A model generated the notes under the pieces. The model was not told the DNA's origin. It saw only the letters and a program-made list of their open reading frames with translations, and did no database searches. Of a DNA stretch of 64,000 nucleotides, positions 17,129-41,548 are shown in pieces (position 1 is the first letter of the stretch; every line of letters starts with the position of its first letter). Location: assembly GCA_022793195.1 (NCBI GenBank), contig JAAWCJ010000029.1:62001-126000 (forward strand), written 5' to 3'. The translations under genes and the position numbers were made by a program. The stretch comes from Lachnospiraceae bacterium (lineage in GTDB: Bacteria > Bacillota > Clostridia > Lachnospirales > Lachnospiraceae).

Positions 17129-17373
17129 GGGATTGTTGCAAAATATCTGGATTTATATATGCCCAGCATCCCTCCTGTCTCTGTCCTTATCCGATAGGCA
17201 GATTTTGCAGGTTTTGTGAGACTAGCGGCGCCAGCCCCGCTGACCGGCTTCTATGGAAGCGGCGGCTGGTGGCAATAGGCGGCGCAGCAAAACCAAAAAA
17301 TCAACGTGGATAAGAACAGAGACAGGAGGGATGCTGGGCAGACATAACTATCAGAATATTTTACAACAATCCC
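17129..17373. terminator. Terminator-type inverted repeat interrupted by element A
   Basis: Outer arms (17129-17150 and 17352-17373) match as GGGATTGTTG, C or T, AAAATAT, with a one-base bulge. They are the same type as the compact hairpin at 46694-46740, but here 201 bp, mostly element A, sits in the loop. The whole unit lies between convergent genes tmcAL and the hydrolase and probably ends both transcripts. Confidence 0.7.
17161..17339 (-). repeat. Structured element A: 115-bp conserved core inside a 32-bp stem
   Basis: Arms 17161-17192 and 17308-17339 pair at 31 of 32 positions (begin GCCCAGCATCCC). The core 17193-17307, read on the minus strand, is about 90% identical over all 115 bases to the core of element B (41385-41499). 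Inside the core GATTTT pairs with AAAATC and GGTTTTG with CAAAACC, followed by further GC-rich stems (CCGCT/AGCGG; CTTC/GAAG). No convincing open frame lies in it. It could be a non-coding RNA or a non-autonomous mobile hairpin. Confidence 0.8.
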
Positions 17374-17383
17374 TTTAATAATT

Positions 17384-18352
17384 TTACTTCCCCGCTTCCT
17401 CAGAAGAGAGAATCCTTTTCACCGTCCGCCCCCACTCCTCCGGTTCATTCTTAATAGGGGAATGGGCAGATTTCTCAAACCAAATCCATTCCTTTTTTGG
17501 TGCCGAAAGCTGATTAAACCATTTCTCTGCAAGAGGAATCGGCGTATTCTGGTCATGGCGGCCTTCTGTGAGGTACACTGGCATTTTAAGCTCCGGGACT
17601 ATTTCGCCCAAATCAAAGTCCACCACTTCATCCCACATGGCTCTGAGGCTGAAAAATGCTCCTTTATAATATTTCCACAAATCAAAAAGGCTGTATTCGG
17701 GAGAATGTAAAATTGGCAACAATACCGATTTGATGATACCGTCACTTTCTCCGTAATCCTCTCCGCCATATTTGGACATCAAATTCCGCTGAACCATCAA
17801 GTCATCCAAACTTTTATAATGTCCTTTATCCGGCCAGCCAATCCGCTCCAGATCCGAAAGTGCTTTCTTATCCCCTCGTTTTTTCGCCTCTTTAAGGACA
17901 AACTCATAGGACAGTCGTTCGTTTTCGGATCCGCTCACAAACTGGCCCATTCCAATATAAGCCGCCACATCTTCCGGATATTTATGGGCCAGAAGCGTCC
18001 CCAGGAGGGAGCCCCAGGAATGTCCCACAATATAGACTGATCTTTTCTTAAACCGTTCCTTCAGATAAGCCACAAGCTCATGGGCATCCTCCACCATCCG
18101 CCACACGTTGAGATCATCCTCTTTCAGATTTTTGCTATAGCTTAAACCGGCGCCCCGCTGATCCCAACACACCATAGTGGCGTTTTCCGCCAGGGCTGAT
18201 TGGTCTTTTAACACCCAGTGCCTGTCACATACCCCCGGCCCGCCATGGAGAAACAGCAAGACGGGAAGCGATACATCACAGCTGCGTATGCGGATATGCT
18301 GCAGGATGTTTCCCAGGGAAACCGTAGTTTTTTCATCAATCGCGTAAGCCAT
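17384..18352 (-). CDS. Alpha/beta hydrolase, proline iminopeptidase-like
   Basis: A 322-residue cytoplasmic hydrolase. Oxyanion loop FLHGGPG (residues 34-40), nucleophile elbow GHSWGS, catalytic aspartate in EGRHDQNTP and histidine in KSAHSP near the C-terminus form a complete triad. The HGGPG plus GHSWGS combination is typical of prolyl aminopeptidase-like enzymes and related serine hydrolases; the substrate cannot be told. A GGGGGAG site precedes the start. It lies 20 bp after the PFL-family gene at the end of the long minus-strand run. Confidence 0.85.
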   Translation of the reverse strand: MAYAIDEKTTVSLGNILQHIRIRSCDVSLPVLLFLHGGPGVCDRHWVLKDQSALAENATMVCWDQRGAGLSYSKNLKEDDLNVWRMVEDAHELVAYLKERFKKRSVYIVGHSWGSLLGTLLAHKYPEDVAAYIGMGQFVSGSENERLSYEFVLKEAKKRGDKKALSDLERIGWPDKGHYKSLDDLMVQRNLMSKYGGEDYGESDGIIKSVLLPILHSPEYSLFDLWKYYKGAFFSLRAMWDEVVDFDLGEIVPELKMPVYLTEGRHDQNTPIPLAEKWFNQLSAPKKEWIWFEKSAHSPIKNEPEEWGRTVKRILSSEEAGK

Positions 18353-18372
18353 GCCAACTCCCCCTTTTTCGT

Positions 18373-19737
18373 CTAATTTTTAAAACTATGGATGGGCGCC
18401 GGAATCCTGCCTCCCCTATTCACAAATGCTGCGCAGGAATAGTCATTTACCGGCATCACCGGGGCATAGCCCAGAAGGCCTCCGAACTCCACCACATCTC
18501 CCGCCTTTTTCCCTTCAGCCGGAATCAGGCGGACTGCCGTAGTTTTCTGGTTCACCATTCCAATGGCCGCCTCGTCGGCAATAATCCCGGAAATCGTTTC
18601 CGCCGTCGTGTCACCCGGTATTGCAATCATATCAAGCCCCACGGAACAAACGCAAGTCATCGCTTCCAGCTTTTCAAGGGTCAGTGCACCCCTGTTTACA
18701 GCATCGATCATCCCCTGGTCTTCGCTGACCGGAATAAAAGCCCCGGAAAGGCCGCCCACATAAGAAGAAGCCATGACGCCGCCTTTTTTTACCTGGTCGT
18801 TGAGCAGGGCCAAGGCTGCCGTAGTGCCGGGGGCGCCTACGCTTTCCAGCCCTATTTCTTCCAGAATCTCCGCCACACTGTCTCCCACCGCAGGCGTCGG
18901 AGCCAGGGATAGGTCTACAATTCCAAAAGGTACGTTTAACCGCTCTGACGCTTCCTTTGCCACCAGCTGTCCCACCCGCGTCACCTTAAAGGCCGTCTTT
19001 TTGATGGTCTCGCAAAGGGTTTCAAAACTCTCCCCCCTGACTTCTTCCAGGGCGGTTTTCACCACTCCGGGTCCGCTGACGCCCACATTGATCACGGCAT
19101 CTGCCTCCGTCACTCCGTGGAAAGCGCCTGCCATAAAGGGATTGTCATCCGGCGCGTTACAAAAAACCACCAGCTTCGCGCACCCCAGGGAATCCTGGTT
19201 CTTTGTAGCTTTTGCCGTTTCTTTTATGACCTGCCCCATCAGCTTTACTGCATCCATATTAATCCCGGTTTTTGTGGAACCCACATTGACGGAGCTGCAG
19301 ACCCTGTCGGTTATGGCCAGCGCCTCCGGGACAGAACGGATCAGCAGCTCATCCGCCTGGGTCATTCCCTTGCCCACCAGCGCAGAATAGCCGCCAATAA
19401 AATTGACTTTCACTTCTTTTGCAGCCTGATCCAGGGTTTTCGCCAGAGAAACAAAATCCCCGGCAGTCTTTACGGCCGCTCCACCCACCAAAGCGATGGG
19501 AGTGACGGAAATCCGCTTATTCACAATGGGAATCCCGTATTTCACTTCGATCTCCCGTCCTACTTTCACCAGGTCTTTTGCATAAGAAACTATTTTATTG
19601 TAGACTTTTTCATTTACCTTCTGGATATCGGAATCTATGCAGTCCAGAAGGCTTATACCCATGGTAATGGTACGGACGTCCAGCTTCTCCTGCTCGATCA
19701 TCTTATTGGTTTCGTTCACTTCAAATCTGCTTATCAT
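18373..19737 (-). CDS. PFL-family protein (UPF0210/DUF711)
   Basis: A 454-residue protein of the UPF0210 family, related in fold to pyruvate formate-lyase but without known activity. Visible family segments: [20 protein letters not shown] near the start, [43 protein letters not shown] and the glycine-rich C-terminus. I start it at the ATG at 19737, behind GAGGGG; the frame is open 18 codons further up. It lies 11 bp after an ACT-domain gene, a conserved two-gene unit in many Firmicutes and archaea. Confidence 0.9.
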
Positions 19738-19748
19738 GACAGCCCCTC

Positions 19749-20021
19749 TTAAATTCTGTGCATTTTGTTGAAAATGTCTTCGTGCTGGCAACGGATTTTT
19801 ACCCCGATCTCCCCTCCGATCTGGTCTAACTCCTCCACCACATCCCCAAAAGGCTTTGTGGATTTGCTGGCGTCCACAATCATCATCATATTAAAATATC
19901 CCTGAAGGATGGTCTGGGAAATATCTTCAATGTTGATACGGTTATTGGCCAGATAAGTACACACCTTTGCAATAATTCCCACAGTATCCTTTCCTACCAC
20001 TGTAATAATCGTCTTTTCCAT
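19749..20021 (-). CDS. ACT-domain protein (UPF0237)
   Basis: A 90-residue protein with one ACT domain ([20 protein letters not shown]...[22 protein letters not shown], in parts), related to GcvR-like regulators that sense amino acids. It is always paired with the UPF0210 gene downstream, 11 bp away here, so it probably regulates that protein. The ligand is unknown. Confidence 0.92.
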
Positions 20022-20051
20022 CGTTTCCTCTCCTCATTTTTATGTATCCTG

Positions 20052-20849
20052 CTATATATAAACCGTTTCCGACATCACACTCCTGTCTGCCACGGAAATA
20101 TCAAAATCCGTTCCCCGGTAAGCGTTTTCCCCCATGGTCACCTCCAGGCGCACCGTTTCATAGGCAAGCTGTGCGTAATTATTTTCCTTGGATAAATGTC
20201 CCAGGAGAACCTTTTTAAATTTATCGTGAAGAAGCTCCCCCAAAAGCCTCCCTGCCGAATCATTGGACAGATGCCCGTTGTTCCCCATGATCCTCCGCTT
20301 CAGGTAATAAGGATACGGCCCTGTCTCCAGCATACGGACATCATGGTTTGATTCCAGCAAAAGGGCATCCAGGCCCAACAGATGATTGATGGTATACTGG
20401 CTGTAGTTTCCAAGATCTGTAACCACCGCTGCAGAAGCATATTCAGAATTTACCCTGAATGCACATGGATTGGCCGCGTCATGGTCGATGGAAAATGGGG
20501 AAATCTTCATATCCCCGATGGAAAAGTCCACATCGGGAAAAATTTCCCGGTGAAGCCCGTCTGGAAGTTCCCCGACGCTCCGTGCCGTCAGGATCCTCTC
20601 ATAAGTTTCTCTGGTAGTATAAATCGGAATCCCATTTTTCCTGGAAAACACCCCCAAACCCCCGATATGGTCAGAATGTTCGTGAGTAACCAGAATTCCC
20701 GAAAGTTCACTTCCTTTGATTCCAAGCTTCGCAAGCCCCCCTTCAATCCGCCTGGCCGATATGCCGGCGTCAATCAAAAGATGGGTGGTGTCCGTGCCAA
20801 CGTAAATACAGTTTCCGCTGCTTCCGCTGGCTATGCTGGCAAGCCGCAT
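20052..20849 (-). CDS. MBL-fold metallohydrolase, YycJ/WalJ family
   Basis: A 265-residue metallo-beta-lactamase-fold protein starting MRLASIASGSSGNCIYVG, with the zinc motif THEHSDHIGG (about residues 54-63), later ligands VVTDLGNY and LLESNHD, and NNGHLSN. The WalJ/YycJ family is linked to DNA repair and to coordination of cell division with replication in Firmicutes, where it normally sits in the walRK operon; here it follows coaE and polA instead. The sequence assignment is clear, the role inferred. Confidence 0.88.
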   Translation of the reverse strand: MRLASIASGSSGNCIYVGTDTTHLLIDAGISARRIEGGLAKLGIKGSELSGILVTHEHSDHIGGLGVFSRKNGIPIYTTRETYERILTARSVGELPDGLHREIFPDVDFSIGDMKISPFSIDHDAANPCAFRVNSEYASAAVVTDLGNYSQYTINHLLGLDALLLESNHDVRMLETGPYPYYLKRRIMGNNGHLSNDSAGRLLGELLHDKFKKVLLGHLSKENNYAQLAYETVRLEVTMGENAYRGTDFDISVADRSVMSETVYI

Positions 20850-20877
20850 TTCCTCTTCCTCTCTTCCGTGCTAAAAT

Positions 20878-21477
20878 TCATATCATTAATTTTTCAATCT
20901 GGATTTCCATCTGTTTTCTGCTGCCGTCATTTTCAAGGATGGCGGAGGCTCTCCTTTTAAATTCCCCTTCCTCCATTTGGCTTTCCATCACCTTTAAACA
21001 CCGTTCCCTGGTGTAGCCCCTGGTTTCCATAAGCCGGGAAATCCTGGTTTCCTTGGAAGCATACACATACCAGATCTCTTTGCAGATATCTTCATATCCC
21101 GCTTCCAGAAGAATGGCCGATTCAATCACCGCAAAGACAGGAACCCCATTCCGCCTTTCCTCTTCCCTAAGCCTGTCCAGCCTGGCTTCAATTTCCTGAC
21201 GGACTGCCGGATGGATAATCCCGTTTAACCGGTCAAGGGCCTCATCATCCCCGAAAACAAGCCCCGCAATTTTTCCCCGGTCCAGCCTTCCATCCGGCCT
21301 CACTACTGTTTCCCCAAATACTTTCACCACCGGGGCAAAGCAAGTGCCTCCCGGCTCCATAAGCTCTCTTCCAATCTCATCTGCCAAAAGGGGCTTTGCC
21401 CCGTATACCTCTTCCAAGATTTCCAGAACCGTACTTTTTCCGGCTCCCACGCCGCCTGTCACACCGATCACTTTCAT
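20878..21477 (-). CDS. coaE: Dephospho-CoA kinase
   Basis: Catalyses the last step of coenzyme A synthesis, ATP-dependent phosphorylation of dephospho-CoA. The 199-residue protein has the P-loop GVTGGVGAGKSTVL (residues 5-18), DEIGRELM, and the lid region with LMETRGYTRERC. Its ATG overlaps the polA stop by four bases, so it is coupled to polA; polA-coaE adjacency is widespread in Firmicutes. Confidence 0.95.
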   Translation of the reverse strand: MKVIGVTGGVGAGKSTVLEILEEVYGAKPLLADEIGRELMEPGGTCFAPVVKVFGETVVRPDGRLDRGKIAGLVFGDDEALDRLNGIIHPAVRQEIEARLDRLREEERRNGVPVFAVIESAILLEAGYEDICKEIWYVYASKETRISRLMETRGYTRERCLKVMESQMEEGEFKRRASAILENDGSRKQMEIQIEKLMI

Positions 21478-24116
21478 TTTGTCTCAAACCAGCTCTTTCC
21501 CACATTCATATCCACTTCCAGCGGAACTGAAAGGGCCGCGGCTCCATCCATTTCCTCAAGAAGGATGGCTTTCACCTGCTCCAGTTCCGAAAGGGCTGTT
21601 TCCACCAGCAGTTCATCATGAATCTGAAGAATCAGCCTGGATTTTAAACCTTCCCGCCTAAGGCGCCTGTCCACCCCTACCATGGCAATCTTCATGATAT
21701 CGGCAGCAGTCCCTTGTATGGGGCTGTTCATGGCCACCCGCTCCCCGAAACTCCTCTGCATAAAGTTGGAAGAAGAAAGCTCCGGCACCGGGCGCCTGCG
21801 GCCATAAAGGGTCGACACATATCCCTTTTCTTTGGCCTGGGCCACAAGGCCGTCCAAAAAAGCTTTCACTCCCGGATAAGTCTCAAAATACTGGTCAATA
21901 TAATCCACCGCTTCTTTCCTGCTGATACTTAAGCCTTCACTGAGGCCAAAAGCGCTGATACCGTACACAATTCCAAAATTCACCGCCTTGGCGTTCCGCC
22001 GCTGCAAGGCCGTCACCTCCTCAAAGGGGGTATGGAACACCTGGGAAGCTGTGATACGGTGGATATCCTCCGCCTGATGATAGGCTTCGATCAGCCGTTT
22101 ATCTCCCGACATATGCGCCAGGACCCGCAGCTCAATCTGGGAATAATCCGCATCCACAAATAGGAACCCCTCTTTTGGCACAAATACTTTTCGGATCTCC
22201 CGCCCTAACTCCATACGAACTGGAATATTCTGAAGGTTCGGCTCTGTACTGCTGATTCTTCCTGTTGCCGTGATGGTCTGGTTAAATTTCCCGTGAATTC
22301 TGCCATCATCACAAATAAACGCCGCCAATCCGTCCGCATAGGTGGATTTTAGCTTTGCAAGCTGCCGGTATTCCAGAATCTTCGCCACGACCGGATGCTC
22401 TGCGGCCAATTTTTCCAAAATATCTGCCGCTGTGGAATAACCGGTCTTTGTCTTTTTTCCGTAAGGCAGCTTCAATTTCTCAAAAAGGACCACTCCCAGC
22501 TGCTTTGGCGAATTAATATTGAAAATTTCACCTGCCAGCTCATAAATTTCCTTTTCCAGACAGTCTATCTGTACCTTAAGGGTTTCTCCATAAGTGGAAA
22601 GCGCTTCCTTTTCCACCTGGACCCCTTCTTTCTCCATATGATACAAACTATAGACCAAAGGCATTTCAATATTTAAAAACAGCTCCTTCATACCCGCTTC
22701 CTTCAGTTTTTCCATGAGGATCGGTCCTGCTGCAAAAGCTGTATAAGCCATATAACAAAAACATGTGACACTTGCCTCCTGATTTTCCGAAAGCGCTTCC
22801 CTGAAAGATAATTTCCCCAGCAGGTCGCCCCTGGAAGACACGGTCATACCCAGATGCTCTCCAGCCAGCCCGTCATAAGTATAAGCGTTTTTCAAAGGAT
22901 TTAAAAGATATCCTGCCACAGCAGCGTCATAAAGCCCGTCTCTTTCCGAAACCTGTACAAAAGGAAGCATCTCTTTTAAATCAAATGTCCAGACATGTCC
23001 ATTCTTTCTACAAAGCTCTGCTACCCTTCCCGCCAGATATTCCCCTGTCAGAAATCCGCCCGCTTCGATAAAATAAATATCTTCCTCCCCGTATGCCAGG
23101 GAAAGCCCCAGGATTTCCCCTTTTTCGGCAATCAGTGCGACCCCGGCGCAGGCCGCTTTTTCTGCCTCCTCAAAAACCCTCTCCGCGCCGGAAAAATCAT
23201 CCACAAGAAGAAATTCTTTTTCCACAAAATTTCGCGTCTGGCTTCCTGACTCAAACCGTTTTAAGAGGCTTTTAAGCTCCAGCCTCTTCATGATCTCATA
23301 TGCTTCCTGTGTGAAAAGCTGTCCAATCCGGGCGGCTTCCAGGGAAAATTCCACCGGACATGCCCGGTCGATCTTTGCCAGGATCCTGGAAAGCTCCGCC
23401 TGCTCCCTGCTTCCAGAGAGGGCTTTCTTTGCCCGCTCCGGCTTCACCGCTTCCAGGTTTTCATAGACTGCCTCCAGGCTGTGATAAGTCTGAATCAGCC
23501 CATAGGCAGTCTTCTCCCCAATCCCGGCCACTCCGGGGATATTGTCGGAAGAATCACCCATAAGCGCTTTGACGTCAATGAACTCTTCCGGTGTGACTCC
23601 CATCCGCTCCACCACATCTTTTTTCAAATAATCTTCTACCGTAGTGGCGCCGCCTTTTGTCTTTGGAATCCGAACCTTCGTCCTGTCACTGGCCAGCTGC
23701 AAAAGATCCCTGTCTCCCGAAACCAGCACCACCGAAAGCCCTTTTTCTTCACATCTGGCAGACAGCGTCCCTAAAATATCGTCGGCCTCGTATCCGGCAA
23801 GTTCCACCGAAGGGATTCCCATGGCCCCAAGAACCTCTTTTGTAATGGGAACCTGCTCATGAAGCTCCTCTGGCATCCCTTTTCTTGTCCCTTTATAAGC
23901 TTCATAAAGCTGATGGCGGAAAGTAGGCGCCTTCACGTCGAAAGCCACCGCCAAGTACTGGGGCTGTTCTTCATCCAGGATTTTAAGGAGGATATTTAAA
24001 AAACCATACACTGCGTTGGTATGAAGCCCCTCAAAATTTGTCATATTGGCATGAACGCCGTAAAAAGCCCTGTTTAAAATGCTGTATCCGTCAATCAGTA
24101 CAATCTTTTCGGCCAT
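21474..24116 (-). CDS. polA: DNA polymerase I
   Basis: Fills gaps in repair and removes RNA primers. The 880-residue protein has an intact 5' nuclease domain (1-290; SILNRAFYG, GYEADDILGTL, SGDRDLLQL, MGDSSDNIPGV), a central 3'-5' exonuclease-like domain (about 310-480) and a family-A polymerase domain (about 490-880; DADYSQIELRVLAHMSGD, NAKAVNFGIVYGIS, QIHDELLVE). The DxE metal motif of the proofreading domain is missing (ALIAEKGE at its place), as in other Firmicutes Pol I. It follows the zinc-finger membrane gene after 33 bp. Confidence 0.97.
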   Translation of the reverse strand: MAEKIVLIDGYSILNRAFYGVHANMTNFEGLHTNAVYGFLNILLKILDEEQPQYLAVAFDVKAPTFRHQLYEAYKGTRKGMPEELHEQVPITKEVLGAMGIPSVELAGYEADDILGTLSARCEEKGLSVVLVSGDRDLLQLASDRTKVRIPKTKGGATTVEDYLKKDVVERMGVTPEEFIDVKALMGDSSDNIPGVAGIGEKTAYGLIQTYHSLEAVYENLEAVKPERAKKALSGSREQAELSRILAKIDRACPVEFSLEAARIGQLFTQEAYEIMKRLELKSLLKRFESGSQTRNFVEKEFLLVDDFSGAERVFEEAEKAACAGVALIAEKGEILGLSLAYGEEDIYFIEAGGFLTGEYLAGRVAELCRKNGHVWTFDLKEMLPFVQVSERDGLYDAAVAGYLLNPLKNAYTYDGLAGEHLGMTVSSRGDLLGKLSFREALSENQEASVTCFCYMAYTAFAAGPILMEKLKEAGMKELFLNIEMPLVYSLYHMEKEGVQVEKEALSTYGETLKVQIDCLEKEIYELAGEIFNINSPKQLGVVLFEKLKLPYGKKTKTGYSTAADILEKLAAEHPVVAKILEYRQLAKLKSTYADGLAAFICDDGRIHGKFNQTITATGRISSTEPNLQNIPVRMELGREIRKVFVPKEGFLFVDADYSQIELRVLAHMSGDKRLIEAYHQAEDIHRITASQVFHTPFEEVTALQRRNAKAVNFGIVYGISAFGLSEGLSISRKEAVDYIDQYFETYPGVKAFLDGLVAQAKEKGYVSTLYGRRRPVPELSSSNFMQRSFGERVAMNSPIQGTAADIMKIAMVGVDRRLRREGLKSRLILQIHDELLVETALSELEQVKAILLEEMDGAAALSVPLEVDMNVGKSWFETK

Positions 24117-24149
24117 AATTTATCCTTTCTCTGTCTGTCATCCCTGATG

Positions 24150-24512
24150 TCAGATCATCCCCATGTCGGCAAAAATACGAAGTTGTAAAAGAGCCGCCAG
24201 CACAATACACCAAAATGCCGTTGTATAAATAACATAACGAAGGCCCTGGAAAAAATGGCGCCGCCTGATCTGTCGTTCCGAATGATAAAGCTCTTCAGCC
24301 AGTGCCCCGTCCAAATCATAGAGTTCCTTTACTTCTTCCTCTTCATGCTCCAACTGCAGGATTCCCAGATACAAAGTATAATAAATATTCAGCTCTTCCC
24401 TGCACTCTTCACAGGAATGGATATGGTCAATAAATCCCTCCAGCCTGTCCGGAGTCATGGTCCCATCTATATAATCTGTAATTTGCGCCTGAATTTCCAT
24501 ACAGCGGTTCAT
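24150..24512 (-). CDS. Putative anti-sigma-type zinc-finger membrane protein (zf-HC2)
   Basis: A 120-residue protein with an N-terminal cytoplasmic zf-HC2 motif (HIHSCEEC, preceded by ITDYIDGTM, about residues 9-36) and one C-terminal membrane segment (YVIYTTAFWCIVLAALLQL, about 90-108). This is the layout of ZAS anti-sigma factors, but no ECF sigma factor is adjacent, so the partner is unknown. I chose the ATG at 24512 behind AAAGGGGGACG. An extended -10 box at 24548-24553 may give it its own promoter. Confidence 0.75.
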   Translation of the reverse strand: MNRCMEIQAQITDYIDGTMTPDRLEGFIDHIHSCEECREELNIYYTLYLGILQLEHEEEEVKELYDLDGALAEELYHSERQIRRRHFFQGLRYVIYTTAFWCIVLAALLQLRIFADMGMI

Positions 24513-24547
24513 ACCCGTCCCCCTTTTCCCGGCAAGCCCTGTCAGCC

Positions 24548-24553
24548 AGTATA
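24548..24553 (-). promoter_or_regulatory. Possible extended -10 promoter before the zf-HC2/polA genes
   Basis: TGGTATACT on the minus strand in the 90-bp gap after the diguanylate cyclase gene; no good -35. The same extended box precedes dgt. Confidence 0.4.
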
Positions 24554-24602
24554 CCATATCCTCGCTTCTTTTTCTACAAGCGTCTTACCTTCCCGCCTGG
24601 CA

Positions 24603-25679: not shown

Positions 25680-25721
25680 GTCCATCCCTCTGCCCTTCTT
25701 CTGAATTTTCCCAGCCATATA

Positions 25722-27377: not shown

Positions 27378-27389
27378 AGCAAATCCCTC

Positions 27390-31937: not shown

Positions 31938-31950
31938 TCTCTCACCCCTG

Positions 31951-32955: not shown

Positions 32956-33009
32956 GATCCCATCATCCCTTCTCTTTTGGATATTCTTATGTGGACATTC
33001 CTGTCTATG

Positions 33010-33037
33010 AGTATACCATACTCCCTTCCGATAGCAA
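33010..33037 (-). promoter_or_regulatory. Promoter of the dgt-dnaG-rpoD operon
   Basis: On the minus strand TTGCTA (33032-33037), 16 bp, TATACT (33010-33015) with an extended TGG before the -10. It lies 55 bp upstream of dgt. Confidence 0.65.
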
Positions 33038-33142
33038 AGTAAATCCCTTCGCCTTTTTTTGATAATTTTATAAAATAGGGAAAAAATAGAGATTTATTAT
33101 ATATGGTATTTTTAGGAATTTTACAGAAAATTCACTTTTCCC

Positions 33143-33171
33143 TTGTCCCTCCAGTGATTTTATTGTAAACT
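33143..33171 (+). promoter_or_regulatory. Promoter of the NSS transporter gene
   Basis: TTGTCC (33143-33148), 17 bp, TAAACT (33166-33171), 32 bp before the ATG, which has a strong GGAGGAAAG site. Confidence 0.6.
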
Positions 33172-33203
33172 AGTAGGAAACTATCACTATTGGAGGAAAG
33201 ACT

Positions 33204-34559
33204 ATGGAACAGACAACAAAGAGAAGCAGTTTCTCCGGAAAGCTGGGTTTTGTCCTGGCGGCTTCCGGTTCTGCGGTAGGACTGGGGAACATCTGGCGTT
33301 TCCCGTATCTGGCAGCTAAATACGGAGGAGGAATCTTCCTTCTGGTTTATTTGATTTTGGCCGTGACTTTCGGTTTTGCCCTGATGGTGGCAGAGATTGC
33401 CATTGGACGGAAAACAAGACAGAGCGCCATCCACGCTTACGGCGTCCTTGATAAGCGGTTCCGGTTTTTAGGGCCTTTGGCTTCCCTGGTTCCCATTATC
33501 ATCACCCCTTATTACTGCGTCATCGGCGGATGGGTCATCAAATATCTGGCTGTCTATGCCACCGGTAATGGCGCTACCTTAGCCGACGGAAATTATTTCA
33601 CTGAATTCATCTCATCCGTATCGCCCATGGTATGGTTCATTGTTTTTGTGGCCGTCACCGTTATCATCGTTATGACCGGCGTGGAAAAAGGCATTGAAAA
33701 GGTCAGCAAATTTATGATGCCCCTCCTCGTCCTTCTTTCCCTGGGCATTGCCATTTACTGCCTGACTCTGCCCGGGGCCATGGACGGCGTCGTCTACTAC
33801 CTGAAACCGGATTTCAGCAAATTTTCCGTCACCACCGTATTGGCCGCCATGGGACAGCTTTTCTATTCTATGTCCCTGGCCATGGGCATTATGATCACTT
33901 ACGGTTCTTATATGAAAAAGGATTCCCATCTGACGGCCTCCGTCCATCAGATTGAAATTTTCGACACCGGCATCGCATTCTTAGCCGGGCTGATGGTGAT
34001 TCCCGCAGTTTTTTCCTTTACAGGAGGAGCGGATATCAATGCCGGCCCCGGGTTAATGTTTATCACCCTGCCGAAAGTATTCGGAAGCATCGCCATCACC
34101 AATATTATCGGAACCTTATTTTTCCTGCTGGTACTGTTTGCAGCATTGACCTCTGCCATTTCCTTAACGGAAACCGTGGTTTCCATCATCTGCGACAAAA
34201 CCGGCATGAAGCGTATGCCCAGCTGTATTCTCACAGCCGTGATCCTCATCGCTCTTGGAAGCCTGTCGGCCCTTGGCTACGGCGTCCTTGCACAAGTTCA
34301 GATTATTGGAATGGCATTCCTGGATTTCTTTGACTTCGTAAGCAACAGTGTACTGATGCCCATCGTGGCTTTCCTCACCTGTATTCTGGTGGGCTATGTG
34401 ATCAAGCCCGCTCCTATGATCGAAGAGGCGGAAGCAGAAGGGGCCGCTTTCAAGGGAAAGCAGTTGTTTGTTTTCGTAATCAAATACCTTGCGCCTATCT
34501 GCATTGTCGCAATTTTAATCAGCTCTGTTTTAAGCGCTTTCGGTATCATCAGTATCTGA
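33204..34559 (+). CDS. Neurotransmitter:sodium symporter (NSS/SNF family)
   Basis: A 451-residue integral membrane protein with 11-12 predicted transmembrane helices, the size of bacterial NSS carriers such as LeuT, MhsT and TnaT, which import amino acids with sodium. The signature GSAVGLGNIWRFPYLAAKYGG in TM1 (about residues 19-39; sodium and substrate site) is intact, and SMSLAMGIMITYGSYM marks TM6-7. Substrate is probably a neutral or aromatic amino acid but cannot be read from sequence. It is monocistronic, with its own promoter and a factor-independent terminator. Confidence 0.93.
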   Translation: MEQTTKRSSFSGKLGFVLAASGSAVGLGNIWRFPYLAAKYGGGIFLLVYLILAVTFGFALMVAEIAIGRKTRQSAIHAYGVLDKRFRFLGPLASLVPIIITPYYCVIGGWVIKYLAVYATGNGATLADGNYFTEFISSVSPMVWFIVFVAVTVIIVMTGVEKGIEKVSKFMMPLLVLLSLGIAIYCLTLPGAMDGVVYYLKPDFSKFSVTTVLAAMGQLFYSMSLAMGIMITYGSYMKKDSHLTASVHQIEIFDTGIAFLAGLMVIPAVFSFTGGADINAGPGLMFITLPKVFGSIAITNIIGTLFFLLVLFAALTSAISLTETVVSIICDKTGMKRMPSCILTAVILIALGSLSALGYGVLAQVQIIGMAFLDFFDFVSNSVLMPIVAFLTCILVGYVIKPAPMIEEAEAEGAAFKGKQLFVFVIKYLAPICIVAILISSVLSAFGIISI

Positions 34560-34579
34560 CACCTGGTAACTAGATTTCC

Positions 34580-34622
34580 ATACTGTCCGGCGGGCGGTTT
34601 TCCTTCCGGATAGTATTTTTTC
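34580..34622 (+). terminator. Factor-independent terminator after the NSS gene
   Basis: Arms ATACTGTCCGG (34580-34590) and CCGGATAGTAT (34606-34616) pair perfectly over 11 bp and are followed by a run of T, 20 bp after the stop. Confidence 0.9.
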
Positions 34623-34636
34623 AAAGGCTTTTTTAC

Positions 34637-35320
34637 ATGATAAAGAAATTTTTAAAACGTCTTCCCATCGGTGGATTGATTCCGCTTTTGACTTGTTTTC
34701 TGGTAAATGATTTTGTTTATTTTATTTTGCGTATATTTATGGAAGACGCATATCATTATGATATGACCACCTTTCTGGATGAAAAAATTCCATTCATTCC
34801 CGGATGGGTCAGCATTTATTTTATCTGTTACATTTTCTGGGTGGTAAATTATCTTTTAATTGCCAGCCGGGGAAAAGAACATCTTTACCGTTTTGTGACG
34901 GCAGATTTGCTTTCCCGCATCATATGCGGGGTATTTTTCATACTTCTGCCCACCACCAATGTACGCCCTGAGATTACCGGAAACGGACTTTGGGAAAATT
35001 TGATGCGGTTTTTATATGCCGTTGATCCACCCACCAACCTGTTTCCTTCCATCCACTGTCTCACCAGCTGGTTCTGCTATATCGGTATCCGGGGACAAAA
35101 AGGCATATCTCGCGCTTATCAGGTTTTTTCCCTGGTTTTTACAGTGCTTATCTGCCTGTCCACCCAATTTACCAAACAGCATTACCTGGTGGATGTCATC
35201 GGCGGCATTGTGCTGGCGCAGGTTTGTTACTCTTTATCCATGAAATTTAACTGGTATAAACCGATAATGAAATTTTTTGAATGTATCAATAATAAAGTTT
35301 GGAGACATAACTATCTATGA
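34637..35320 (+). CDS. PAP2-family membrane phosphatase
   Basis: A 227-residue protein with five to six transmembrane helices. The PAP2 active-site motifs are partly visible: LFPSIHCLTSW (PSxH, about residues 134-144) and QHYLVDVIGG (H and D of motif 3, about 176-185). Likely removes phosphate from a lipid such as phosphatidic acid, phosphatidylglycerophosphate or undecaprenyl pyrophosphate. It heads a four-gene lipid cluster with the flippase-like protein, PssA and Psd, 18 bp from the next gene, so a role in phospholipid turnover is likely. Confidence 0.85.
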   Translation: MIKKFLKRLPIGGLIPLLTCFLVNDFVYFILRIFMEDAYHYDMTTFLDEKIPFIPGWVSIYFICYIFWVVNYLLIASRGKEHLYRFVTADLLSRIICGVFFILLPTTNVRPEITGNGLWENLMRFLYAVDPPTNLFPSIHCLTSWFCYIGIRGQKGISRAYQVFSLVFTVLICLSTQFTKQHYLVDVIGGIVLAQVCYSLSMKFNWYKPIMKFFECINNKVWRHNYL

Positions 35321-35338
35321 CGCAAGCAGGGAAACTTT

Positions 35339-36394
35339 ATGGGAAATAAAAAAAATCATATTTTAAATCTACTCTTTCTGCTCCTGGTCTTCTCTCTGAC
35401 CATCTGGGCAGTTTTTAAAGGCGAAGATCTCAGTCTGATTTTTTCCTATATCCGGACTGCAGATCCTGTGTACCTTTTTTTAGGCATTTTATGCGTAGTG
35501 ACTTTTATCCTGGGAGAAGCCATTATCATCTGTTATCTTCTCCGCGTCTTAGGATACCGTGTCCGTGCCACCAGGTGTTACCTCTATTCCTTTATCGGCT
35601 TTTTTTTCAGTTGCATTACGCCTTCTGCCACAGGGGGACAGCCTGCACAGGTTTATTATATGAAAAAAGACCATATCCCAATCCCGGAATCCACCCTTGT
35701 CCTTATGATCGTCACCATCACTTACAAGATGGTTTTGGTGGTGTTGGGAATCCTGGTTTTACTGCTTCGCCCCAGGCGGGTCATGGTTTACCTGGAGCCG
35801 GTCATGTTCTGGATTTACCTGGGCCTGGCTTTAAACGTATTCTGTGTGACTTTTATGATGATTTTAGTCTTCCATCCAAAGCTGGCAAAATGGCTGATGG
35901 TAAAAGGGCTAAAACTTCTGGAACGGATGCATTTGCTGCGAAAAAAAGGAAAACGGCTGAAAAAGCTGGAATCTTCCATGGACGATTATCATGCGGCCGG
36001 CGAATTTTACTGGAAACACAAACCCGTGGTCATCCGTGCTTTTCTGATCACTGTGGTTCAAAGGCTGCTTTTATTTTTTGTCACCTATCTGACCTATCGT
36101 GCATTTGGTCTCTCCGGTGAAAATATGGTTACGATTGTGTGTCTGCAGGGAATGATCTCCCTGGCAGTGGATATGCTTCCCCTTCCAGGAGGTATGGGAA
36201 TCAGTGAACGGCTGTTCCTTTCTATTTTTACTCCTGTATTTGGAACGACACTTCTTCTGCCGGCCATGATCGTAAGCCGTGGAATCAGCTATTATTCCCA
36301 GCTGACCATCAGCGCCATTATGACTGTGGCCGCACATTTTATCATTGGAAATTACCACTCAAAAGAATCAAAACCAGGAGGCAAAGCGACATGA
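35339..36394 (+). CDS. Flippase-like integral membrane protein (LPG synthase TM domain/UPF0104)
   Basis: A 351-residue protein with about eight transmembrane helices of the PF03706 type, the domain that flips lysyl-phosphatidylglycerol in MprF, but without the soluble synthase domain. Family segments: FFFSCITPSATGGQPAQVYYM (first part at about residues 82-90, GGQP at 94-97) and PLPGGMGISERLF (about 281-293). Stand-alone members are thought to move lipids or isoprenoid-linked sugars across the membrane. It overlaps pssA by four bases (ATGA), indicating a link to phosphatidylserine/phosphatidylethanolamine metabolism. Confidence 0.85.
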   Translation: MGNKKNHILNLLFLLLVFSLTIWAVFKGEDLSLIFSYIRTADPVYLFLGILCVVTFILGEAIIICYLLRVLGYRVRATRCYLYSFIGFFFSCITPSATGGQPAQVYYMKKDHIPIPESTLVLMIVTITYKMVLVVLGILVLLLRPRRVMVYLEPVMFWIYLGLALNVFCVTFMMILVFHPKLAKWLMVKGLKLLERMHLLRKKGKRLKKLESSMDDYHAAGEFYWKHKPVVIRAFLITVVQRLLLFFVTYLTYRAFGLSGENMVTIVCLQGMISLAVDMLPLPGGMGISERLFLSIFTPVFGTTLLLPAMIVSRGISYYSQLTISAIMTVAAHFIIGNYHSKESKPGGKAT

Positions 36395-37077
36395 TTGGAT
36401 TTTATAATTATACGGTAATTCTTACTTATATCAGCCTGATTTCTTCCGTATTTGGAATGACACAGGCCATCCACGGGCATTTTAAAACTGCTATCTTCTG
36501 TCTGGCCCTCTCAGGACTCTGCGATATGTTTGATGGAAAAATCGCCCGGACAAAAAAAGACCGGACAGATGATGAAAAAGCTTTTGGCATCCAGATTGAT
36601 TCTCTGTGCGATGTGGTCTGCTTTGGGGCTTTTCCTGCCCTGATCTGCTATCTCCTTGGAGTCCGCGGTATTTTGGGGCTTCTTATTATCTCCATATATT
36701 GTGTCTGCTCTGTTATCCGCCTGGCTTTTTTTAATGTTCTGGAAGGACGGCGCCAGCAGACAGAAGGCGGCGCAAACCACTATTACCATGGACTTCCCAT
36801 CACTTCCATGTCCGTGGTTTTACCTTTAATTTTTATGACTCAATTTTTTATTCCTGATTTTGTCTTTCTTATTTTGTTACATATTGTCCTTTTGGTGGTG
36901 GGCATCCTCTTTGTGGTGGATTTCCCGTTCCGCAAACCAAATAATCATGTATTGGCTGTTTTAGTGGCTGTAGTCGCTGCCGCCCTCCTGGCCCTGTTCA
37001 TCTACAGCAAGTTCCGTGTGCCCAAGCCTACGGAGGACAGCAATCCTATTATTGATAAAATTTTTGAGGAGTCCTGA
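36391..37077 (+). CDS. pssA: CDP-diacylglycerol-serine O-phosphatidyltransferase
   Basis: A 228-residue membrane protein of the CDP-alcohol phosphatidyltransferase family. The motif DMFDGKIAR followed by GIQIDSLCD (about residues 46-78) fits DxxDGxxAR...GxxxDxxxD, with a 12-residue gap between the arginine and the glycine. Makes phosphatidylserine from CDP-diacylglycerol and serine; the pairing with psd downstream (17 bp gap) supports serine rather than glycerol phosphate as the alcohol. About six transmembrane helices. Confidence 0.9.
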   Translation: MIGFYNYTVILTYISLISSVFGMTQAIHGHFKTAIFCLALSGLCDMFDGKIARTKKDRTDDEKAFGIQIDSLCDVVCFGAFPALICYLLGVRGILGLLIISIYCVCSVIRLAFFNVLEGRRQQTEGGANHYYHGLPITSMSVVLPLIFMTQFFIPDFVFLILLHIVLLVVGILFVVDFPFRKPNNHVLAVLVAVVAAALLALFIYSKFRVPKPTEDSNPIIDKIFEES

Positions 37078-37094
37078 AATAAAGAGGTATTTTC

Positions 37095-37961
37095 ATGATT
37101 TATAAAACAAGAGATGGCAAAGAAATATCAGGAAATGACGGACAAGACCAGTTTCTGTCGCTACTTTATGGTTCTCTGCCCGGAAGAATGGCTGTCCGCC
37201 TCCTGATTCATCCGGTTGTTTCCAAAATCGGCGGTGTTTTTTTGAACAGCCCTCTGTCGCGGTTCATGATTCGTCCATTCATAAAGAAAAATAAAATTGA
37301 TTTAAGCCTGTACGAAACAGCTGCCTATCATTCTTATAATGAATTTTTTATCAGAAAAATAAAAAAAGAGGCCAGGCCTTTTGATCAAAATCCTTCTCAT
37401 CTTGTCAGCCCCTGCGATGGGAAACTTACTATTTATCCCATTCAAAAAAACGGCAGGTTTTTGATCAAACAGACTGCCTATACGACAGAAACCCTCCTGC
37501 GGAATAAAAAACTGGCCAGGCGATATGAAAATGGGTTGGCCCTTCTTTTTCGTCTGACGGTGGATGACTACCATCGCTATTTCTATGTGGATGACGGCAG
37601 AAAAAGCCGAAATGTATGCCTTTCCGGCGTTCTCCATACAGTAAACCCCGCTGCCAATGATGCATACCCTATTTATAAGGAAAACGCAAGACAGTACAGC
37701 CTTCTAAAATCCGTCCATTTCGGCACCATCCTCATGATGGAAGTGGGTGCCCTGATGGTAGGTAAAATCAGCAATCACCACCAGGAGGCTTTTGTCACCC
37801 GCGGCGCTGAAAAAGGGTTTTTTGAATTTGGAGGCTCTACAATCCTTCTTCTTTTTGAGCCCCACTGGATTTTACCCGATGAAGATCTGTTAAAAAACAG
37901 CCTGGAAGGTTTTGAAACCGTTGTAAAAGCAGGCGAACGAATCGGAAAAGCTGTGCGCTGA
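37095..37961 (+). CDS. psd: Phosphatidylserine decarboxylase proenzyme
   Basis: Decarboxylates phosphatidylserine to phosphatidylethanolamine. The 288-residue proenzyme carries the self-cleavage site FGGSTILLLF (about residues 246-255), where the serine becomes the pyruvoyl cofactor of the small alpha chain, and DDYHRYFYVDDG with the catalytic histidine (DYHR, about 156-159). Length fits the type II family of Firmicutes. Together with pssA this gives the cell a complete route to phosphatidylethanolamine. Confidence 0.95.
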   Translation: MIYKTRDGKEISGNDGQDQFLSLLYGSLPGRMAVRLLIHPVVSKIGGVFLNSPLSRFMIRPFIKKNKIDLSLYETAAYHSYNEFFIRKIKKEARPFDQNPSHLVSPCDGKLTIYPIQKNGRFLIKQTAYTTETLLRNKKLARRYENGLALLFRLTVDDYHRYFYVDDGRKSRNVCLSGVLHTVNPAANDAYPIYKENARQYSLLKSVHFGTILMMEVGALMVGKISNHHQEAFVTRGAEKGFFEFGGSTILLLFEPHWILPDEDLLKNSLEGFETVVKAGERIGKAVR

Positions 37962-37986
37962 CCAGCAGATACTGTCGGATGTCGAA

Positions 37987-38090
37987 GAATATTTTGATTT
38001 TAGGTTCTGTCCGCCAGACGTTTGCCCTGCCTACTGGACAAAATCAGAGGCAGGGCAAAACGCCTGGCATATAAAAATCAAAATATTTTC
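37987..38090. terminator. Bidirectional hairpin between psd and the hybrid kinase gene
   Basis: Outer arms AATATTTTGATTTT and AAAATCAAAATATT (14 bp perfect, from 37988 and 38074) enclose a second stem with GCCAG, CGTTT and GCCCTGCCT against AGGCAGGGC, AAAACG and CTGGC. It lies between two convergent genes, with A/T-rich arms on both sides, and fits a terminator for both. Confidence 0.8.
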
Positions 38091-38106
38091 CAGCAGTTTC
38101 CGCTTG

Positions 38107-41100
38107 TCACGCGCTCTGCCCTGCCAGCACCTCATCCAGTGTTTCCAGCAGTTTCTCCACATCAATGGGCTTCGCAATGTGTCCATTCATTCCACATTCC
38201 AGGGCTGCCTGCCTGTCTTCTTCAAAGGCATTTGCCGTCATTGCCAGAATCGGCACAGAAGACAATCTTTGATCCTCCAGTTTTCGGATTTCCCTGGCAG
38301 CTTCATGGCCATTCATCACCGGCATCTGGACATCCATAAGCACAAGCTGATAGTAGCCCGGTTCAGAAGATTTTACCATATCCACCGCGATTTCCCCATT
38401 TTCCGCAACATCGACAGAAAAGCCTGCATCTTTCAGGATTTCCATTGCGATTTCCTGGTTCAGCTTATTATCCTCAGCCAGAAGAATCCTCCCTGTCTGG
38501 GCTTTCACCAGCTCTTTCGGGTTATTGTTTTCGCTGGCCTGCCCTGTTCCCACAATAGAAGACAGACAATTCCTAAGCTCCGATAGAAACAACGGCTTAC
38601 TGCAAAATGCCGTCACTCCGGCTTCCTTTGCCTCCTCCTCAATCTCCGACCAATCATAAGCAGTCAATACGATCACCGGTACTTTTTCTTCCGTTTCCTG
38701 GCGGATTCTCCTGGTAACTTCAATTCCATTCATATCCGGCAGGAACCAGTCAACAATATAAACGCTGTACTCATCACCACGCATCACTGCCTGGCGGGTA
38801 CGAAGCACCGCTTCCTTCCCTGACAAAGTCCATTCCGCCCTCATTCCAATCTGTCCCAGCATATAGGACACACTGTCACAAGTATTAAAATCATCATCCA
38901 CCACCAAAGCCCGGCAGTCCTTCAGCTCCGGTATATCCTGCGGTTCTTTTGCATCTGAATCCAGGCGGAAAGTAAAGGAGACAACGAACTCTGTCCCTGC
39001 GCCTTCTTCACTCTTGACCGCAATGGAGCCGTTCATCATATCCACGATATTCTTCGTAATGGCCATTCCCAGGCCAGTTCCCTGAATTCCGCTGATGGTG
39101 GTATTTTTTTCTCTCTCAAAAGGCTCAAAAACATGGGCGACAAACTCTTCACTCATTCCAATGCCCGTATCTCTGATATAAAATTCATAATTGGCGTATC
39201 CGGCAGGCGCTCCGGCTTTTTCCGTAATCCTCAAGGTGATAATTCCACCTGCGCCTGTATATTTAATGGCATTGCTGAGCAGATTTAAAAGCACCTGGTT
39301 CAACCGCAGTTTATCGCAATAAATGTCCTCGTCAAAAACATCCACCGTATCAATATAAAATTCCAACTGCTTTGCATGGATATCCGCCTGTACGATATTG
39401 CGCAGCCCATGGAGAATATCCGGCAGCCTGCAGGGCTTCTCTTCTAAATGCATTTTCCCGCTTTCAATACGGCTCATATCCAACACGTCATTGATCAGGC
39501 TCAACAAATGATTGCCGGATGTCATGATTTTTTTCAGATATTCTTTTACCCGTTCCTGACGCTCGATATGGGTAAGGGCCAGGGCCGTAAAGCCAACAAT
39601 GGCATTCATCGGCGTACGGATATCGTGGGACATATTGGAAAGAAATGTACTCTTGGCCCGGTTGGCCCGGTTGGCCTGCATAAGCGCACTCTCAAGCAGG
39701 CTCTTTTGCTCCATCTCATTTCGGATTTCCTCATCCACACTGCGGAAGCCCAAAACAATCCCGTGGTTTTCTTCCCACTCACCTGTGCGCACCACTTTCA
39801 TCTGAAAATATTTTACATGGTCATTTTTCAAAGTGCGGTAATTCATGTAACACTGTGTTTTTTCTGCCAGCTCTCTCTTCAGCCCTTCCCTGGAAGCCAT
39901 CTGCCGCAGCATCTCACGGTCATCCTCATGGACAAATGCCTCTATGTAACGCTCCATCCTGTCGTCCAGGGAAAGCTCCCCTTCAAAGATTGTCTCTAAA
40001 AGACTGTCGCCGTTGTCCTCATGACGGATCCTGTGTCCCATGCCCGTATTCAAATCAAAGAAACAGACAAGATTATAATCAATGCTAAGTGCATGAACCA
40101 GCTCCATCTGCCTCTGTTCATGCTCCTTTTCCTGAAGCTTCTGCGCCGTACAATCCAAAAGGAAACGCTGGTAAAGAAGTTCTCCATTTTCCTTCAACAG
40201 CTTCACATTTCCCATTACATGCAAAATATCGCCGTTTTTATGGCACACACGGTATTCCACGCTGGTGCTGTCCCCTTCTCTGGTCAGGTCACGGATACTT
40301 TTCCTGAGAGTTTCCTTGTCTTCTTCCATCACTGACTGGGCCACCATATCAAAACCTTCGGCCATCATCTCTTCCTGAGACTCATACCCAAGGATTTTGA
40401 GAGCCGCCCTGTTGATGCTTAAAATCCGCGCTCCATCCGTTGTATGGCACATGACGCCACACTCCATCGTAGTGAATATCGTCTCCAGTGTACGGTTTTT
40501 CTGGATGATCTCCTGTTCATAAGCCCGCTCCTGGGTCACATCAATGGCAACCCCCACTGTTCCCATGACACTTCCATCCAAATCATACAGTGGAGATTTA
40601 TATGTAGTGAGCAATTTGATACCATCTCCGGACTTTACTGTTTCCTCAGAGATGCAGGTTTCCCTTCTGCTCATCACTTCCCGCTCCGACTCAATACAGG
40701 CGGGATCATCCTCTTCCACATCCCAGATGTAAGCATGCCGCTGGCCTTCCACCTGCTTCTTTGTCTTACCCACAGTCCGGCAAAAACTGTCATTTACTTT
40801 TTCATGAACTCCATTTTTGTCCTTATACCAGATCAGGTTGGGTATATTATTGATGGTGGCCTCCAGGTAATGGCTGGTCTGCCAGTAATCCTTTTCCATC
40901 TTGCATGTCTTTTGCCATTTAAGAAAGCGGAAACGGATCTCCTCCTCCGTCATGGGCAGCTTCCATAAATCCTCAATTTCAGACAAGTACTCCGTCAAAC
41001 ACGCTGCATCCCCTTCATCAGCAAGAAGGATCAGCTTTGCTCCCTTCCGCTTTTCTGTAAGCAATGTCCGAAGCCCCTCTGTCAGTCCAATATCCTGCAA

Positions 41101-41262
41101 GACGGCCAATATCACATCCGCTTCGGCCGCCAGCGCCTGATCCGGTTTTTCACCCTCTGAAAACTCGTGGGTAAAAGCCTCCAGCGGAGACATCTCTTTT
41201 ACGATTTCAAACGCTCTGCACGGCTTCCCCGCAAAATAAAAGTGGATATGGCAGCGATACAT
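38107..41262 (-). CDS. Soluble hybrid sensor histidine kinase (pseudo-receiver, PAS, HisKA, HATPase, two receivers)
   Basis: A 1051-residue phosphorelay protein without transmembrane segments. Order: receiver-like N-terminal domain without a clear phospho-aspartate (about 1-118), PAS (135-250), PAS (260-380), a third PAS-like region (395-510), HisKA with MSHDIRTPMN (His near 545), HATPase (about 655-775, DTGIGMSEEF and GTGLGMAI), receiver 1 (VDWFLPDMNG) and receiver 2 (LMDVQMPVMNG). No cognate HPt or output regulator is adjacent. The 297 bp upstream hold element B and no promoter that I can name. The kinase at 61394 has the same C-terminal half. Confidence 0.9.
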   Translation of the reverse strand: MYRCHIHFYFAGKPCRAFEIVKEMSPLEAFTHEFSEGEKPDQALAAEADVILAVLQDIGLTEGLRTLLTEKRKGAKLILLADEGDAACLTEYLSEIEDLWKLPMTEEEIRFRFLKWQKTCKMEKDYWQTSHYLEATINNIPNLIWYKDKNGVHEKVNDSFCRTVGKTKKQVEGQRHAYIWDVEEDDPACIESEREVMSRRETCISEETVKSGDGIKLLTTYKSPLYDLDGSVMGTVGVAIDVTQERAYEQEIIQKNRTLETIFTTMECGVMCHTTDGARILSINRAALKILGYESQEEMMAEGFDMVAQSVMEEDKETLRKSIRDLTREGDSTSVEYRVCHKNGDILHVMGNVKLLKENGELLYQRFLLDCTAQKLQEKEHEQRQMELVHALSIDYNLVCFFDLNTGMGHRIRHEDNGDSLLETIFEGELSLDDRMERYIEAFVHEDDREMLRQMASREGLKRELAEKTQCYMNYRTLKNDHVKYFQMKVVRTGEWEENHGIVLGFRSVDEEIRNEMEQKSLLESALMQANRANRAKSTFLSNMSHDIRTPMNAIVGFTALALTHIERQERVKEYLKKIMTSGNHLLSLINDVLDMSRIESGKMHLEEKPCRLPDILHGLRNIVQADIHAKQLEFYIDTVDVFDEDIYCDKLRLNQVLLNLLSNAIKYTGAGGIITLRITEKAGAPAGYANYEFYIRDTGIGMSEEFVAHVFEPFEREKNTTISGIQGTGLGMAITKNIVDMMNGSIAVKSEEGAGTEFVVSFTFRLDSDAKEPQDIPELKDCRALVVDDDFNTCDSVSYMLGQIGMRAEWTLSGKEAVLRTRQAVMRGDEYSVYIVDWFLPDMNGIEVTRRIRQETEEKVPVIVLTAYDWSEIEEEAKEAGVTAFCSKPLFLSELRNCLSSIVGTGQASENNNPKELVKAQTGRILLAEDNKLNQEIAMEILKDAGFSVDVAENGEIAVDMVKSSEPGYYQLVLMDVQMPVMNGHEAAREIRKLEDQRLSSVPILAMTANAFEEDRQAALECGMNGHIAKPIDVEKLLETLDEVLAGQSA

Positions 41263-41334
41263 TTTCCTTTTTCCTCCCTGTGCATTGTGGCCAAAGCTTC
41301 TATACTATTGCTATTTTAACAATCATAAGGAGCG

Positions 41335-41548
41335 GTGTCAATCCATATTTCACCCGGCGTCCTGCCTGTCTGCCGCGTCTGTCCACGTTGATTTTTTGGT
41401 TTTGCTCCGCCGCTTATTGCCGACAGCCGCCGCTTCCATAAAAGCCAGTCAGCGGGTCTGCCGTCGCTATGCTCACAAAACCTGCAAAATCTGCCTACCG
41501 GACAGACGCGGCAGACAGGCAGGACGCCGGGCGAATATGGATTGACAC
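41335..41548 (+). repeat. Structured element B: 115-bp conserved core inside a ~50-bp stem
   Basis: Left arm 41335-41384 and right arm 41500-41548 pair almost completely (one mismatch and one bulge), from GTGTCAATCCATATT at the outside to GTCTGTCC at the inside. The core 41385-41499 is about 90% identical to that of element A in opposite orientation. Stem positions differ between A and B in a compensated way (CCCGGCGTCC/GGACGCCGGG here, CCCAGCATCC/GGATGCTGGG in A). It begins 11 bp after the spoVAF stop and fills most of the gap to the kinase gene. Confidence 0.85.

Follow-up and report, generated by a model that had tools for sequence, protein, structure and literature searches.

MITEs such as ERIC, Bcr1 and Correia are non-coding, imperfect palindromes of about 100-250 bp that are dispersed and encode no protein. 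REP/BIME sequences show a preference for the 3' ends of genes. Invertons are phase-variable invertible DNA, in which the segment between inverted repeats flips. Two papers describe REP palindromes as short, high-copy sequences of 20-40 bp (PMC3733652, PMC2817692). According to a study of inverted repeats in yeast, template switching homogenises the arms of an inverted repeat and inverts the spacer when the switch is between molecules (PMC8604942). A further report proposes that template switching can give rise to RNA hairpins and compensatory changes and can maintain them (PMC8794818).

Here we analyzed a window of 64,000 nucleotides (G000:C55:62001-126000) from the genome of a Lachnospiraceae bacterium (G000; 2.69 Mb, 57 contigs). 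The window contains two copies, A and B, of an intergenic hairpin repeat of 200-260 bp. Like REP/BIME sequences and RAYT-mobilised repeats, these are short intergenic hairpins in high copy. However, they are 200-260 bp long instead of 20-40 bp, their stem sequence is unconserved, and the conserved part is an internal core of 115 nt. With MITEs the repeat shares a non-coding nature, a similar size, an imperfect palindrome, dispersal and the lack of an encoded protein. MITE ends are conserved across copies, whereas here conservation is in the invertible centre, and both ends and arms are variable. As in invertons, a segment between inverted repeats flips, but the hairpin repeat has no common repeat sequence or associated recombinase, and its flips are seen between species. 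The yeast case likewise joins arm homogenisation and spacer inversion in one mechanism; its inversions are substitutions of 2-5 bp in coding genes, whereas the spacer here is structured, 115 bp long and part of a multi-copy bacterial repeat (PMC8604942). Because the centre and not the ends is conserved and flips, this repeat is unusual among small dispersed bacterial hairpin repeats. We did not find it described in the open-access literature searched (one library). From comparison of sequences, we consider it probable that this is a dispersed, non-coding Lachnospiraceae hairpin repeat with a REP- or MITE-like lifestyle, whose arms stay paired mainly through template switching and whose core is constrained as a folded strand.

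Results

Two distant elements share a 115-bp core

A first-pass annotation of the window had placed elements A and B in it, and both are present where it put them (rows L022 and L001, respectively, of our alignment A1). Each core is 115 bp long, as that annotation had it, and its estimate of about 12 core differences agrees with the 11 of 115 that we counted by eye in alignment A1. The stem changes that it quoted between A and B are also there. The stems exist, but the lengths it gave them, 32 and about 48 bp, are too short: outward alignment without wobble bias yields 66 Watson-Crick pairs of 75 in the arms of A and 52 of 55 in those of B. Element A extends from about 17126 to 17376, and the two cores are oriented oppositely relative to the window. 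The folded-strand orientation taken here is the reverse of that used in the annotation. The features are as follows, with G007 a second species of the genus.

17126..17194, no strand: left arm of A, with the genus-wide half-palindrome GGGATTGTTGCAAAATAT at its outer end (outward arm alignment)
17195..17309, plus strand (the orientation tolerating G-U in the inner stem): core of A, 115 bp (R1 match C55:79195-79309:+; alignment A1 row L022)
17310..17376, no strand: right arm of A, which pairs with the left arm (outward arm alignment)
41335..41382, no strand: left arm of B, its outer part common to species G007; overlaps a promoter-like -35 box
41383..41497, minus strand: core of B, 115 bp (R1 match C55:103383-103497:-; alignment A1 row L001)
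41498..41548, no strand: right arm of B, its outer part mirroring the left arm in G000 and not in G007
46694..46740, no strand: solo short palindrome without a core, of the type seen as outer arms in many copies

Pfam shows the four ORFs adjoining A and B to be ordinary host genes. An insertion sequence was considered and rejected, as the element is only 200-260 bp long and these neighbouring ORFs include no encoded transposase. A promoter-like site lies at 41313-41341 on the minus strand (11/12, extended -10), in a scan that at its threshold finds 0.8 sites per shuffled region. Its -35 box is inside the outer left arm of B, and the gene downstream of it is a histidine kinase gene (38107-41262, minus strand).

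The annotation could not assign the elements to a named family, and comparison with Rfam agrees. When the whole window was searched against Rfam 15, there were 0 matches at or above the gathering score. With E up to 5, B has four matches, all below gathering: mir-4520, the best, at 25.7 bits against 90, followed by MIR1151, ES003 and Six3os1_1. Locus L234 has none at this E.

The repeat is dispersed within a genus and reaches other genera

From the two copies in the window the annotation had predicted many in the genome, and covariance model R1 finds about 65 in G000. R1 was built from 60 cores of G000 and related species, and the arms were not included. A 22-base core motif has 60 sites in G000 at three or fewer mismatches and 0 for a reversed-pattern control, so the pattern is far above chance. 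We searched 11 genomes of the genus with R1 and scored 150 candidates per genome, which makes the copy counts lower bounds: at least 65 in G000, at least 35 in G004, at least 27 in G010, at least 15 in G009, at least 14 in G006, at least 12 in G007 and at least 5 in G005. No R1 match was found among the candidates scored in the same-genus genomes G001, G002, G003 and G008. The covariance-model search of this and other Lachnospiraceae genomes, which the annotation had outlined, thus places the core, with other paired arms, in at least seven of the 11 genomes searched within the genus. Across the family, at least nine of 150 genomes match. One is the bacterium's own; the other eight belong to other genera, and their copy numbers range from 1 to 7, again as lower bounds. 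These eight contribute 22 distant core matches. The named relatives are mostly Lachnospiraceae metagenome assemblies.

A second model, R2, was built from the 22 distant core matches. In 341 genomes of the class, R2 matched the bacterium's own genome only, with ten candidates scored per genome and under stricter filters, settings at which weak matches can be lost. The core of B has no match in plasmid and phage collections at E 1e-5, and one specific core pattern has 0 matches in viral contigs. On these grounds a phage or plasmid origin was rejected.

Four copies (L004, L008, L013 and L014) are 95-97% identical over about 250 bp. In their 40-base far flanks, L008, L013 and L014 share 50-65% identity with L004. 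Such close similarity of copies at unrelated sites indicates recent dispersal, which is a mark of MITEs. Conserved MITE termini were rejected: among the 58 G000 copies that could be extracted with both core ends, GGGGCTGTTGC-type ends are found in many, not all, and are absent by pattern in B, L028, L063, L065 and others. In some copies, a direct repeat (CTGATATT- or AATATCAG-like, read by eye), a possible target site duplication, flanks the inner unit. The ends of the element may resemble IS6-like ends.

Three other loci are of note. L091 (DBBQ01000048.1) has the exact core motif in a contig filed as Flavobacteriaceae, which is possibly misbinned. At L237 (G154), two diverged inverted copies are only about 225 bp apart. 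L222 (G138:C114, 1973-4737) has a tyrosine recombinase gene and two small ORFs, the latter without PHROGs matches, enclosed by two copies in inverted orientation.

The core, unlike the outer arms, probably behaves as one folded strand

Core length is 115-128 nt, and 44 of the 58 extracted G000 copies have a core of 115 bp. Mean identity among these 44 equal-length cores is 88%, and their 32-base 5' arms are 51% identical ungapped. The core contains two nearly constant A/U-rich helices, GATTTT with AAAATC and GGTTTTG with CAAAACC, and conserved joints around GAGCATAGC and GGCGGCGCAGC. Its inner stem varies with compensation and bears a conserved loop. In 13 of the 22 distant matches, the loop has instead a loose TGTCTGAGCC...GGCGAGTT-like pattern, which presumably resembles a kink-turn.

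We next consider wobble pairs. The core structure was predicted on the reverse strand, favouring G-U; its register is largely backed by Watson-Crick exchanges too. Across the ten pairs of the inner stem, read on the reverse of the annotation's strand, G-U outnumbers A-C by 50 to 6, and by 30 to 6 when the most extreme pair is left out. Two-sided change is seen in 17 of 30 predicted core pairs. The strand-specific wobble of the inner stem suggests that the core is selected as a folded strand. Taken as the signs of a structured RNA, strand-specific wobble and helix covariation are found together in the core and not in the arms beyond their first 8 pairs.

Some cores are longer. About 93 extra bases occur at one fixed place in seven G000 loci (L064, L068, L070, L071, L074, L075 and L077). 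In G004, loci L209, L210 and L216 have them at the equivalent position. The extra bases contain two paired blocks, also with compensated changes. Another insert lies in the terminal loop of the core in L069, L076 and apparently L068. A third repeat family, which contains GGAAAGGAAATTAGCCTTTCAG, is a core-loop insert in some G000 copies (L069, L076) and stands in tandem at the A locus of G007 (L112).

The arms pair within each copy. The annotation had held that copies with unpaired stems would speak against it, and all 58 extracted copies are paired: every within-copy arm score is at least 31 (median 41), whereas scores between copies have a 95th percentile of 28 (median 14). For 49 of the 58, none of the 58 right arms pairs better with the left arm than the copy's own. 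For the distant copies, 20 of 22 arm scores exceed the between-copy 95th percentile of 14, the two lowest being 10 and 13, and the own right arm is the best of all 22 in 20. Since R1 contains no arms, yet these arms pair, the distant matches are supported independently of the model.

Selection on the arms as RNA would be expected to leave more G-U than A-C on one of the strands. In the orientation of the annotation, the arms of the 58 G000 copies have 148 G.T and 165 A.C mismatches (p = 0.37); p-values in this test are only indicative because the copies are related. The first 8 arm pairs beside the core have 6 G.T and 27 A.C in the same orientation, favouring the reverse strand (p = 0.0003, again indicative), and the pairs beyond them have 142 and 138. 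In the reverse orientation, the two counts for the arms of the 22 distant matches are 63 and 47. As the arms show no G-U preference (148 against 165), RNA selection need not explain them. What the test counts against is selection on the arms as RNA; it has no bearing on selection for a DNA cruciform.

The annotation had read the paired changes as the classic sign of selection on pairing. A templated mutational process can yield compensated changes without selection, and for the arms the reading is not supported in that form: the wobble signature is lacking, and the core inversion and joint arm changes described below point to templated mutation. It is supported for the inner stem and perhaps for the first 8 arm pairs, which favour the same strand (27 against 6). 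The DNA-level alternative that the annotation offered alongside RNA, a cruciform, was well placed.

The core is inverted between related species

We compared loci with collinear flanks in a second species as ortholog pairs. Pairs with one-sided, short or repeat-only flank matches were left out (for example L004/L149, L081/L114, L201/L190 and L140/L148). Core orientation is opposite in seven of the 17 pairs that have a core on both sides.

Inverted pairs: L003/L116, L028/L117, L063/L119, L015/L115, L087/L139, L207/L187, L216/L193
Same-orientation pairs: L066/L126, L006/L133, L023/L137, L144/L151, L196/L185, L198/L181, L202/L179, L205/L188, L211/L191, L212/L190

Inversions make up 4 of 5 pairs for G000/G007, 1 of 3 for G000/G006 and 2 of 9 for G004/G010. 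The weakest are L216/L193 and L087/L139, where cores are partial or have changed strongly, and for L115 the contig stops within the arm. When the four inverted G000/G007 cores were compared with 48 own cores, the ortholog was the best match in three and the second best in one. These cores therefore look like flips, not re-insertions. The four-base spacer beside the core moves along with the core in inverted pairs. Divergence between G000 and G007 at four-fold sites of the flanking genes is 0.25, 0.36, 0.30 and 0.22 at four loci, and three of the inverted cores differ at 10/115, 8/115 and 5/114 positions, so the cores change less than synonymous sites.

We also counted arm columns in 16 pairs, setting aside 194 gap columns and leaving out L015/L115, where the contig ends in the arm. 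Among these columns, 339 are unchanged, 83 changed on both sides and are still paired, and 70 changed on one side. The remainder are 54 mismatches common to both species, 7 that are swapped and 53 others. Two-sided changes account for 18 of 40 ungapped columns in L006/L133, 16 of 37 in L023/L137 and 14 of 33 in L087/L139, all of them G000/G006 pairs. Between L202 and L179, a patch in one species perfects the core stem at the cost of a conserved joint.

Some loci differ in whether the core is there at all. G007 has no core at A (L022/L112), B (L001/L172), L008 and L014. At the B locus it has a short hairpin. At L008 it has a short palindrome, and the G000 copy there is a palindrome of this type that encloses the core. 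In sister species, one and the same locus can hold a hairpin that has the core or one that lacks it. G000 and G007 resemble each other in the outer left arm of B, and the right arm mirrors the left only in G000, which suggests templated extension. The promoter-like site overlaps this left arm, whose conservation may therefore be due to selection, and which arm would have been the template is uncertain.

Short palindromes of the outer-arm type, often an A-run, GGGGCTGTTGCAAAATAT... and a T-run, also stand alone, for example at 46694-46740 of the window. This one and L152-L166 are about 47 bp long and match many copies in the sequence of their outer arms. The palindrome half-motif has 84 sites in G000 at two or fewer mismatches, arms of core-bearing copies included, and 0 in the reversed control.

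Copies often lie between convergent genes

By mechanical ORF calls, 56 of the 58 copies have two callable neighbours, which are convergent in 28, tandem in 24 and divergent in 4. In the window as a whole, 8 of 52 gene pairs are convergent, or 5 of 24 where the gap is at least 60 bases. Core orientation in the 24 tandem contexts divides 11 and 13; this randomness relative to tandem genes is awkward for a cis-acting RNA. TTTT is near the right arm end in 11 of 58 copies, the left in 17 of 58 and both in 8. It is found in 214 of 2000 14-mers drawn at random from these loci, a control unmatched in base composition, and is thus modestly commoner near arm ends than in random 14-mers. With Pfam and PHROGs, no shared partner gene was seen in thirty neighbour entries, some of them repeated; the neighbours are ordinary or unnamed genes.

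Discussion

We propose that replication template switching is mainly what would keep the arms paired, with one arm serving as template for the other, on the same strand or across strands. Events of this class would also invert the core and collapse arms, and they may extend arms into the flank. Template switching would account for the concerted arms, the lack of wobble bias, the core inversion, the arm growth and the perfecting patches. Dispersal and the conserved core are not explained by it and need a recogniser. We suggest that the core is under a constraint of its own as a folded single strand, more likely RNA than ssDNA, and that this constraint probably comes from recognition by a trans-acting factor that disperses the element. 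Against template switching, paired arms and double changes could also result from selection, and 70 arm columns changed on one side only. Also against the proposal, no transposase or other mobilising gene was identified, and the family search matched few genomes (at least nine of 150).

Several other explanations share part of this evidence. That the arms are paired purely by selection on a long hairpin, as RNA or cruciform, with inversion a by-product of recombination, was the view of the first-pass annotation and would fit the pairing in 58 of 58 own copies and in the 20 of 22 distant matches above the between-copy 95th percentile, as well as the strand-specific wobble of the first 8 arm pairs and the inner stem. 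We think it rather unlikely, given heavy two-sided change at single loci (18/40 in L006/L133, 16/37 in L023/L137, 14/33 in L087/L139) and counts of 142 G.T and 138 A.C beyond the first 8 pairs, which show no RNA-type tolerance, though this wobble result leaves DNA cruciform selection unaffected. The wobble in the core would also be expected if the element dispersed as a folded single strand, by an HUH or retro mechanism, and if each insertion rebuilt its arms, or extended them, from the target flank. The outer arms are indeed locus-specific and mirrored into the flank, as at B and L008. However, members of the recent subfamily (L004, L008, L013 and L014) have the same arms although they lie at different sites, so that an insertion does not always remake the arms, and we hold this route to be improbable. 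An invertible switch, flipped by a dedicated site-specific recombinase as in an inverton, is harder still to credit. Core inversion at orthologous loci and the tyrosine recombinase gene flanked by two inverted copies in G138 would suit it, but the arms are copy-specific and a common recombinase site was not found. Near-full-length relatives of this recombinase have at most 39% identity in 24 other genomes, 14 of them carriers; one 73-residue fragment reaches 47% in G154, and the non-carriers G002 and G003 hold equally similar proteins (34%). We rejected it as the dedicated enzyme, since it has no close relative in other carriers. A second protein, at 57%, is found in G138 itself.

A function at the sites of insertion is a somewhat more open matter. 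The hairpin could be a bidirectional transcription terminator or insulator between convergent genes, with the core tuning RNA polymerase or RNA decay; this is possible, though we lean against it. The 28 of 56 copies between convergent genes, with 4 between divergent ones, exceed the 8 of 52 convergent pairs in the window, the solo palindromes are often an A-run, hairpin and T-run, and TTTT stands at right (11/58), left (17/58) or both (8) arm ends against 214 of 2000 composition-unmatched 14-mers. However, there is no orientation preference in tandem contexts (11 against 13), a simple terminator scan, which allows loops of 3-8 only, is negative at hairpins A and B, and the location may only reflect where insertions do no harm. 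The terminator reading is compatible with template switching.

Building on template switching, we tentatively raise a broader idea. A structured-RNA class, with a conserved core and a kink-turn-like loop in several genera, may have spread as a mobile hairpin. Its arms would maintain themselves as a palindrome by template switching, which would lengthen them and flip the core, and structure, not sequence, would be what is heritable in the ends.

Selected RNA structure is usually proved by compensated stem changes, and here much of the compensation can come from mutation alone. The repeat provides dozens of natural replicates, with selection visible in the core of the same molecule, so that the two signatures, wobble asymmetry and core inversion, can be separated. 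It shows recurrent inversion of a 115-bp spacer between bacterial species. It also adds to nine Lachnospiraceae genera an unannotated high-copy repeat, whose conserved core is probably recognised by something.
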